Source of the DNA: Flavobacteriaceae bacterium
GTDB taxonomy: Bacteria; Bacteroidota; Bacteroidia; Flavobacteriales; Flavobacteriaceae
Assembly: GCA_002693605.1 (NCBI GenBank)
Contig: NZQO01000131.1
Coordinates: forward strand, 1-18,463
Reading direction: 5' to 3'
Length of the DNA stretch: 18,463 nucleotides
Position numbers and translations under genes: made by a program. The first letter of the stretch is position 1. Every line of letters begins with the position of its first letter. The notes under the pieces were generated by a model. It saw only the letters and a program-made list of their open reading frames with translations, did not search any database and had not been told where the DNA came from. Below, piece after piece: positions 4,772-7,357 of this stretch.

Positions 4772-5158
4772 ATGAAACTCCCTTTTAAGACACTTCAACT
4801 TGAATTTGCCAACTTAGAGCTGTACGAGAATTATGTTGTCGCTACCATCGATGAAGGAATGTTAATTGACACTTTCGAAAAGCTGCAACTATATGAGATT
4901 TTCGACCAGTTTTACAGAAATCGCCCATTTGTATATATATCCAATAGAAAACACGATTATACGGTGAACCCGACCAGTTATCTTGGTAGTGAGGAGTACG
5001 ACCAACTGCGGGGAATGGCAGTAATATGCTATTCGGAAAGCAGCTACCAAAACGCACTTTTTGAAAAGGTTTTCTACAAACGACCCTTCCAAGTGTTTTA
5101 TTCGTTTCCAGAGTGCCAGAACTGGATTGACGAATTGCTTAGAACGGAAAAAAAATAA
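4772..5158 (+). CDS. Small conserved protein of unknown function, possibly STAS/SpoIIAA-like
   Basis: 128 aa, no signal peptide or membrane segment. The pattern of an N-terminal strand (LELYENYVVATIDEG, about 16-30), a helix (FEKLQLYEIFDQFYR), a strand (RPFVYISNRKHDYTVNP) and further alternating segments ending in a helix (CQNWIDELL) resembles the small STAS/SpoIIAA-like proteins common in flavobacteria. Function is not known and the fold is inferred by eye. It is the last gene of the operon, 6 bp after rsmD. Its stop codon (5156-5158) directly abuts the 3' end of the convergent rnpB gene, and the AAA-rich final lysine codons form the T tract of rnpB on the other strand. Confidence 0.8.
   Translation: MKLPFKTLQLEFANLELYENYVVATIDEGMLIDTFEKLQLYEIFDQFYRNRPFVYISNRKHDYTVNPTSYLGSEEYDQLRGMAVICYSESSYQNALFEKVFYKRPFQVFYSFPECQNWIDELLRTEKK
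5141..5158 (-). terminator. Probable rnpB transcription end (U tract)
   Basis: Reading on the minus strand, the RNase P RNA closing helix is followed at once by TTATTTTTTTTCC. The U tract lies inside the last codons of the convergent gene at 4772-5158. No separate hairpin is visible, so P1 itself may act as the terminator stem. Confidence 0.45.
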
Positions 5159-5472
5159 GCAGGCCTATAAGCCGGATTCTGTAATAGCGAAAGCTATCCC
5201 TTATCATTTATCTAGACGCACGGTTACCCGAACATTCCATCTGCCTACCCTCCAGCATCGGGCGGGCACCCTTAGTCGCTGGTATACGTGGCATTTCACC
5301 GCATAGAGTTTACCTGATTTCACTACAGCATTACCTGTACATCCTTTCTGTTGCACTGGTCCTTTTCGCCAAAGGCGAACGACGGCCGTTAGCCGCTATG
5401 CTTCCCTGTGGTGTCCGGACTTTCCTCCCCACGCGTCAATAAATCAACGCACTGGGCGATAAGGCGGCCTGC
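5159..5472 (-). ncRNA. rnpB: RNase P RNA component, bacterial class A
   Basis: The minus strand carries the hallmark conserved regions: GAGGAAAGTCCGGAC (5413-5427) followed by the ACCACAGGGAAG segment, a GGTGAAATG segment in the middle, and ACAGAATCCGGCTTAT (5167-5182) near the 3' end. The two ends pair perfectly as GCAGGCC (5466-5472) with GGCCTGC (5159-5165), which fixes helix P1 and the mature boundaries to within a few bases. The RNA of about 314 nt is compact for class A. It is the catalytic subunit that trims the 5' leader of tRNA precursors. It has its own promoter upstream and is convergent with the operon ending at 5158. Confidence 0.96.
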
Positions 5473-5476
5473 GGCA

Positions 5477-5566: not shown

Positions 5567-7357
5567 ATGGAACACTTTATCGTATCGGCCAGAAAGTACC
5601 GTCCTACCCAATTTAAAGATGTGGTAGGCCAACAGGCCATTACCAATACCCTGGACAATGCCATTGCCAATGACCACTTGGCCCAGGCGTTGCTGTTCAC
5701 CGGGCCACGGGGCGTGGGAAAGACTACGTGTGCGCGCATTTTAGCGAAAAAAATAAACCAAGATGGTACCGAGCGTGAAGATGAAGATTTCGCCTTCAAT
5801 ATATTTGAACTGGATGCGGCATCGAACAACTCTGTAGATGATATCCGGAACTTGATCGACCAGGTTCGTATTCCCCCACAAGTTGGCAATTACAAGGTCT
5901 ATATCATCGATGAGGTGCACATGCTATCCTCTGCGGCTTTCAACGCATTTCTGAAAACCTTGGAAGAGCCGCCAAAGCACGCCATATTTATCTTAGCGAC
6001 AACTGAGAAGCACAAAATCATACCCACTATTCTGTCCCGATGCCAGATTTTCGATTTCCGGCGGATTACCGTTCAGGACATTAAGTCGCATTTGGCCGAA
6101 GTAGCCAAATCTGAACATATCGAGGCCGAAGACGACGCCCTGCACATTATTGCGCAAAAGGCCGATGGCGCGCTACGGGATGCGCTTTCCATTTTTGACC
6201 GAGTGGTGAGTTTCTCGGGTAAAAACCTTACACGTGAGGCCGTAACCGAAAACTTGAACGTTCTCGATTATACCTATTTTTTCCACATTACCGAATTGCT
6301 CTTGGAAAACCAGATTTCCAAGGTACTTCTCGCTTTTAACGACATCTTGGCCAAGGGGTTCGACGGGCACCACTTTATAATGGGCTTAGCGTCGCATTTC
6401 CGCGACTTGCTCGTTTGCAAGCACCAAGAAACTATCTCACTTTTGGAGGTAGGCGAACAGATCAAGACAATGTATTTCCAACAAAGCCAAAAGGCAGATG
6501 TGACGTTTTTGGTAGCTGCCATAGAGCTTGCCAATAGCTGCGATCTTACCTACAAGACCAGTCGAAACCAGCGCCTTCTCGTCGAGCTTTGCTTAATGCA
6601 ACTGGCCTCCCTCACTGCGGTAGGCGAAAAAAAAAATGACCTACCCCAGCGTTCCCTAACCAAGCAGCCCTATATCCTTCCCCCGAGCCACGGTATGGGC
6701 AGCAAAAATAAGCAAGCAGAGTCTAGCGAAAAAAAACAGGAGCCTGCTACGCCTGAAGTGAAAAATGCCACTCCCTCCCCCTACACACAAGAGGCGGTCA
6801 AGAACGGTACCCATACCAATAATGAAACCCCAACTGCACCAGCTGCAACTGCCAACAAAGTAGCCGAACGACCGGTAGTACACACCGAACGGAATACAAA
6901 TCGTGTATCGGCCCTTTCGTTGAAGAGTATTAAGAAAAAACAGGAAATCAAAAACGAAAAGACGGCAAATTTGCTGGCTACCGAAGAGCTGCCCACCGAA
7001 CCTTTTACGGAAGAAGCAATGCGCCGTGCCTGGACCGAATATTCTAAGAAGGTCGAGGCAGACGGCCAGTTCAACTTACTTTCGCACCTAACAATGGGGA
7101 TTCCCAAGTTAGAAGGTACGCTCATTCACCTCGAATTTCCGAACAGTACCATCAAGCTGGAAGTGGAGCGCGCCAAATACGAATTGTTGGGTTTCCTGCG
7201 ATCTGAACTTCAAAATTACGACATCGATCTTTCCATTGAAGTGAATGAAACCGCCGTGAAACGATATGCCTATACCCCTCGGGAAAAATTCGAAAAGCTG
7301 AAGGAATCGAACCCGTTACTGGAAAAATTACGGAAGGAATTTGATTTGGATATCTAG
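5567..7357 (+). CDS. dnaX: DNA polymerase III subunit gamma/tau
   Basis: 596 aa. This is the ATPase of the replicative clamp loader, which opens the beta clamp and, through its tau C-terminus, ties the loader to the polymerase. AAA+ motifs: Walker A GPRGVGKTT at 46-54, Walker B VYIIDEVH at 111-118, sensor 1 ATTEKHK near 144-150, and the SRC arginine finger at 157-159. The four zinc-binding cysteines that normally follow Walker A are absent; residues 60-82 are charged instead, as I recall for other flavobacterial DnaX. Domain III ends near 350, then comes a low-complexity linker rich in P, T, A, N and K (about 357-460), and a C-terminal domain (about 474-596) ending NPLLEKLRKEFDLDI. A run of ten A at codons 354-357 could yield a short gamma form by slippage. 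miaE follows 20 bp later. Confidence 0.96.
   Translation: MEHFIVSARKYRPTQFKDVVGQQAITNTLDNAIANDHLAQALLFTGPRGVGKTTCARILAKKINQDGTEREDEDFAFNIFELDAASNNSVDDIRNLIDQVRIPPQVGNYKVYIIDEVHMLSSAAFNAFLKTLEEPPKHAIFILATTEKHKIIPTILSRCQIFDFRRITVQDIKSHLAEVAKSEHIEAEDDALHIIAQKADGALRDALSIFDRVVSFSGKNLTREAVTENLNVLDYTYFFHITELLLENQISKVLLAFNDILAKGFDGHHFIMGLASHFRDLLVCKHQETISLLEVGEQIKTMYFQQSQKADVTFLVAAIELANSCDLTYKTSRNQRLLVELCLMQLASLTAVGEKKNDLPQRSLTKQPYILPPSHGMGSKNKQAESSEKKQEPATPEVKNATPSPYTQEAVKNGTHTNNETPTAPAATANKVAERPVVHTERNTNRVSALSLKSIKKKQEIKNEKTANLLATEELPTEPFTEEAMRRAWTEYSKKVEADGQFNLLSHLTMGIPKLEGTLIHLEFPNSTIKLEVERAKYELLGFLRSELQNYDIDLSIEVNETAVKRYAYTPREKFEKLKESNPLLEKLRKEFDLDI
6627..6636 (+). other. A10 tract in dnaX: candidate slippage site for a gamma form
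   Basis: Ten consecutive A lie in the zero frame as GAA AAA AAA AAT (residues E354, K355, K356, N357), at the junction of clamp-loader domain III and the variable linker. One extra A in the transcript, or a -1 ribosomal slip, reads GAA AAA AAA AAA TGA and stops at once, giving a 357-aa protein. Loss of one A reaches TAA after seven more codons. Known precedents are transcriptional slippage on A9 in Thermus dnaX and -1 frameshifting at A AAA AAG in E. coli dnaX. Confidence 0.5.
6729..6736 (+). other. A8 tract in the dnaX linker, possible second slippage site
   Basis: Eight A read in frame as GAA AAA AAA CAG. A one-base insertion leads to TGA within about seven codons (…TGC TAC GCC TGA), and a one-base loss to TGA slightly later. 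It may act with the A10 tract about 100 bp upstream, or simply reflect lysine-rich linker composition. Confidence 0.25.

Follow-up and report, generated by a model that had tools for sequence, protein, structure and literature searches.

The window, the whole 18,463-nucleotide stretch of DNA that was analysed, has a GC content of 45.5% and carries dnaX on its plus strand. The open reading frame occupies positions 5567–7357, stop codon included, begins with the ATG at 5567 and encodes a protein of 596 aa, the full-length tau subunit of the DNA polymerase III clamp loader. In addition to the list of open reading frames, the assignment is based on the NCBIfam gamma/tau model NF011531 (738 bits against a cut-off of 685), on Pfam matches to the AAA, ATPase lid, and domain III families (the last, PF12169, at residues 222–355), and on a match to the E. 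coli tau/gamma chains in the PDB. An RNase P RNA (RF00010, 175 bits) is found directly upstream of dnaX, at 5152–5475 on the minus strand.

Given the extent of the PF12169 match, a run of A's in dnaX coincides with the end of domain III. The run begins after a G at 6626, comprises exactly ten A's (6627–6636), and leads into TGACC; in frame with the ATG, codons 354–358 read GAA AAA AAA AAT GAC, and the run falls within codons 354–357. Recomputation of bases and codons reproduced exactly the ten-A run that the original prediction had placed after domain III. Ahead of this predicted slippage site lies the gamma part (codons 1–353, 5567–6625, delimited by the reading frame and by the domain III match to residue 355), and behind it the part confined to tau, a linker and the C-terminal region (6638–7354). 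Both other frames are closed nearby: the −1 frame ends after one codon at the TGA at 6637–6639, and the +1 frame after seven codons at the TAA at 6656–6658, all on the plus strand.

The products of slipped messages were computed. A message with one added A (A11) is read into the TGA, as after a −1 ribosomal slip, and gives a protein of 357 aa and 40.2 kDa with the C terminus EKKK. Loss of one A (A9) leads through seven extra codons to the TAA and gives 363 aa; addition of two (A12) leads to the same stop and gives 364 aa, and A8 gives 356 aa. Tau is retained with A7 (595 aa), A10 (596 aa), and A13 (597 aa), and any slip by a number of bases not divisible by three removes its distinctive part. 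The earlier arithmetic for both single-base slips was right, and the claim that a slip truncates DnaX where gamma ends holds for all such slips, with products of 356–364 aa. The 357-aa gamma foreseen originally was likewise obtained by computation, but slippage would be expected to yield the three other lengths as well.

Conservation of the A-Run

Homology searches gathered 568 genomes, and the dnaX junction was read in 298 of them. The best-scoring and listed stretches were chosen before the junction had been seen, with the exception of 20 loci; most of these were chosen for a prematurely ending match, and the sample is therefore biased toward split genes. The search for runs extended from 60 bases before the expected place to 260 bases beyond it, a span in which runs elsewhere in the linker were also counted. 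The longest run in the 298 junctions was A10 in 187, A9 in 36, A11 in 23, A12 in five, and A13 in two; it was A8 in four and shorter in 41. A run of nine or more A's is thus present in 253/298 genes across the phylum, and all three codon phases are represented. All 68 genes of the window's own family have it, the window included, as do 65 of 72 in other families of the order, 99 of 118 in other orders of the class, and 21 of 40 in other classes of the phylum. The uninterrupted run that had been anticipated in related genomes is indeed conserved; relatives in which AAG codons break the run, proposed as contrary evidence, were not encountered in the family, none of the 67 family relatives having a run below A9.

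Of 80 named loci, 78 were readable and 58 have at least A9. Tau is in frame with the run in, for example, Aequorivita viscosa, Aquimarina mytili, Pedobacter, and Hymenobacter polaris, and gamma is in frame in Flavobacterium denitrificans, Chryseobacterium lathyri, and Leeuwenhoekiella polynyae. The run is absent from one Bacteroides and three Prevotella records among the named loci. The nearest named relatives point to Flavobacteriaceae as the probable family of the window. A further 42 genomes, chosen by likeness to a runless gene, contained a run of at least A9 in 16 cases.

Two Arrangements of dnaX

Arrangements were counted at runs of at least eight A's, which allowed 249 of the 298 genes to be classified. 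Tau is in frame in 167; gamma is in frame in 72 genes with tau in the −1 frame and in ten with tau in the +1 frame, so that tau can be reached only by a shift in 82 of the 249. The remainder comprises eight genes of undecided class, several at contig ends, and 41 without a run. In the window's family, with the 20 specially chosen loci left out, 39 genes have tau and nine have gamma in frame (n = 48). The run is A10 in 54 of the 72 split genes with tau in the −1 frame; since it mostly has the same length in both arrangements, the flanking bases set the frame.

Stops close to the run are a feature of both arrangements. Both other frames are shut within 15 codons in 162/165 tau-in-frame genes, and in 77/82 gamma-in-frame genes the farther closed frame also stops within this distance. 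At control positions in the same genes closure within 15 codons was observed in 42.5% (downstream) and 53.9% (upstream), and in runless genes in 8/41 (per-gene median). The median distance to the closing stop is five codons in the +1 frame and two in the −1 frame.

A tree of the 298 DnaX N-terminal parts was built with FastTree, the sequences being cut before the run. It requires at least 40 switches between arrangements, at least 22 changes in run presence, and at least 26 in codon phase, figures that tree error may inflate.

In two genomes of 0.6 Mb (L187 and L188), probably of insect endosymbionts on size alone, gamma is in frame ahead of an A11 run and tau lies in the +1 frame. In two of 0.3 and 0.5 Mb (L182 and L267) the dnaX frame stops at 345–353 aa with no tau match downstream, and gamma alone may have been kept.

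Proposed Mechanism and Alternative Explanations

We consider it likely, with a probability of roughly 0.8, that the A10 run is a programmed transcriptional slippage site from which both tau and gamma are made. RNA polymerase would gain or lose A's on transcribing the run. Messages with ten A's, or ten plus or minus a multiple of three, would be translated into tau (596 aa); translation of the others would end a few codons further on and yield a gamma of about 357 aa, with domains I–III and without the tau part. The conservation in three phases, the closing stops, and the repeated swapping of frames support the programmed slippage that had been predicted, as far as sequence comparison reaches. 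The occurrence and level of slippage in the cell, and a function of gamma, are inferred.

The original prediction had allowed either an added A or a −1 ribosomal slip as the route to the 357-aa product, and the two do not fit the relatives equally well. In the second, programmed −1 ribosomal frameshifting on the run would produce gamma, as well as the tau of the split genes, in the manner of E. coli dnaX. Selection on codons would by itself look alike for the two mechanisms. The window offers in-frame A_AAA_AAA and A_AAA_AAT heptamers with the TGA immediately behind them, and tau is in the −1 frame in 72 of the 82 gamma-in-frame genes. In the other ten, however, tau requires a +1 shift and is out of reach of −1 frameshifting, whereas RNA polymerase slippage could serve all 82. 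Likewise, a −1 shift leaves unexplained why the +1 frame is also shut nearby, at a median of five codons against two, and an unbroken ten-A run exceeds what a heptamer requires. The E. coli heptamer A_AAA_AAG is absent in frame from the window's dnaX; it occurs in frame at the run in 41/167 tau-in-frame and 24/72 gamma-in-frame (−1) genes but is missing from most. The 84 nucleotides 3′ of the window's run do not fold better than shuffled sequences (z 0.60) and give no indication of a downstream stem-loop, and in six stretches near the run, three from the window and three from relatives, no fold was better than shuffles (z −0.38 to 1.02). Stimulators of the E. coli type found no support in this folding or in the heptamer survey. 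By eye, the 32 bases 5′ of the run contain only an AGG immediately before it and no AGGAG-like stretch. Because both shift directions are needed and the RNA structure is unremarkable, slippage of RNA polymerase is favored, and −1 frameshifting as the general explanation appears improbable. The presence of A_AAA_AAG in some relatives indicates that ribosomal slippage may add to transcriptional slippage, or act alone, in some species.

A run without any role, explained by an A-rich sequence or by a requirement for Glu-Lys-Lys here, is much less probable still. The chance of a run of at least A9 at the run site was estimated by sampling synonymous codons from each gene's own usage. For the dnaX of the window, a stretch of 45.5% GC, it is 0.128, which is not negligible for a single gene. 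In the 165 tau-in-frame genes, however, 63.2 would be expected to retain such a run and all 165 do; since these genes were preselected for the run, the sampling tests codon choice only. The run is present even in three frames of 66%–69% GC in which its chance is 0.0005–0.0035, and 11 other runs of at least A9 occur elsewhere in the 165 frames. Runs in other phases encode different residues and lie at different distances, which a peptide constraint does not accommodate; nor would a run without a role be accompanied by paired closing stops in both other frames, or have the tau of 82 genes depend on a shift within it. A-richness or a peptide constraint alone was rejected on the closing stops, the frame swapping, and the codon sampling.

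Although errors are common in homopolymers and draft assemblies are numerous among the genomes, a reading of the split relatives as sequencing or assembly errors, and so as uninformative, can practically be dismissed, given that the splits recur in related genomes and in single-contig genomes rated 99%–100% complete (for example G239, G290, and G224; loci L060, L065, and L143) and that their runs mostly have the A10 length.

Long runs in the window's own assembly (2.19 Mb) were also counted. There are 12 A/T runs of at least ten (18 overlapping matches), and, apart from the one in dnaX, two A-runs of this length are contained in frames longer than 200 codons, of which one is ligD-like and the other spans 370 codons (named by eye). 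An A10 (L309:1501–1510, contig C4:6081–6090) stands at the crossing of two ligD-like frames, a 231-aa open reading frame that ends 52 codons after the run and a 519-aa open frame that leaves the locus in another frame. Either a further gene with slippage or an indel would account for it.

Runless Genes and In-Frame UAG Codons

The absence of a run of eight or more A's from 41/298 genes indicates that gamma made by slippage is dispensable for part of the phylum. A full-length dnaX frame without the run is seen at L110, L190, L196, L197, L352, L356, L377, L380, and L396, Bacteroides and Prevotella records among them. In such lineages gamma, if made, must arise in another way, and some may make none. 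In one genome (L371) a runless frame ends at codon 383 with TGC TAA and a tau-like frame continues in +1, possibly by a +1 shift, possibly through an assembly error.

A different arrangement was found in a family of rumen Bacteroidales. At L391:2599–2601 and L386:2602–2604 an in-frame TAG stands directly after domain III of a runless dnaX, and tau continues in the same frame. Among the best 120 of 8000 scored homologues of the L391 gamma (366 aa), lengths range from 348 to 426 aa, and 66 are exactly 366 aa. Searches of the class and order with the UAG gene gave no close relative among the matches listed, the best reaching 50% over most of the query. Close relatives did appear in the family of the L391 genome, of which 190 genomes were searched; one TAG inside the match was seen by eye in at least 100 listed matches; no TAA or TGA was found within a match among those listed, and others listed have no internal stop and are full length, such as L489, L493, and L496.

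In 33 distinct genes the TAG is followed by AT(T/A) GC(A/T) AG(A/G) and then mostly by TCG CCN NNG GCG GA(G/A) CA(C/T). Where third codon bases would fall within a putative CGCC–GGCG stem, G is found at codon +4 in 32, at +6 in 30, and at +7 in 32 of the 33 genes, even though the residues encoded at +4 and +6 vary; among codons for such residues in the remainder of tau, those ending in G make up 23%, 51%, and 20%. The hairpin hardly varies, and therefore no covariation was detected in the element; the stem stays putative. A model of the element matched 112/190 genomes at E up to 0.01, weak matches included, and its 30 best matches are all dnaX TAG sites.

These genes are candidates for programmed readthrough that would make both gamma and tau, and the tau tail may instead be a separately started product. 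Restart at an ATG is unsupported, as 24/33 genes lack an in-frame ATG within 60 codons (ATG starts only were considered). General recoding of UAG is unsupported by rpoC, which has no internal stop in two such genomes. Pyrrolysine is similarly unsupported: PylS scored above the cut-off in 0/15 genomes, with weak matches below it in six; among control genomes it exceeded the cut-off in 1/14.

Discussion

The run in the window's dnaX is very probably a working switch of the kind known from Thermus, judged from the sequence evidence. Many dnaX genes that a plain ORF caller would report as split or truncated are accordingly likely to be intact. With less assurance, although we lean toward it, a broader reading may be offered for the Bacteroidota: gamma and tau would be maintained by decoding tricks that can replace one another at a single site, either length-constrained A10 slippage, with free frame flips, or, in one runless family of rumen Bacteroidales, UAG readthrough with a conserved element of about 30 nucleotides. 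If true, the UAG route would add a further means of producing both proteins and would constitute a dedicated signal for UAG readthrough in bacteria. An independent role of gamma has long been debated. One account speaks of "considerable controversy" (PMC5009743). A slippage site kept over at least 40 flips, together with a UAG at the same place in a runless family, would be strong comparative evidence for selection on both proteins. Among the top matches in the open-licence literature, which leaves most subscription journals outside, no publication was found on dnaX slippage in Flavobacteriaceae or on dnaX stop-codon readthrough, and no earlier report of a phylum survey, of both shift directions, or of a flip number.

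For the dnaX of Thermus thermophilus, Larsen in 2000 reportedly described transcriptional slippage on a run of nine A's. Two papers state that slippage at these nine A's produces gamma as about half of the product (PMC1088944, PMC5009743). Shared with the window are a tau encoded in one frame, an A-run, stops nearby in both other frames, and gamma from slipped messages, the last predicted here. The window has a clamp-loader gene, an uninterrupted run of nine or more A's beyond the gamma domains, and stops close by in both non-zero frames; the Thermus run is A9 with slippage measured, whereas that of the window is A10 with slippage predicted. In E. coli dnaX, according to PMC5009743 and PMC3711429, −1 ribosomal frameshifting makes gamma. 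The outcome predicted for the window is the same, a tau-frame gene with a gamma ending after the clamp-loader domains, but in contrast to E. coli the window lacks A_AAA_AAG and an unusual downstream fold, and its relatives need both directions. Antonov 2013 (PMC3711429) reports 17 two-ORF dnaX genes from 12 genera, nine of them with ten A's, for which realignment was inferred, and applies the shift-direction criterion for mechanism that is used here. Run length and kind of place in those genes are as in the window, and their arrangement recurs in 82/249 classified relatives; the window's dnaX is a single tau frame, whereas the two-ORF type needs a shift for the longer product. The dnaX of the window thus joins a known kind, that of Thermus dnaX and the two-ORF dnaX genes of Antonov 2013.
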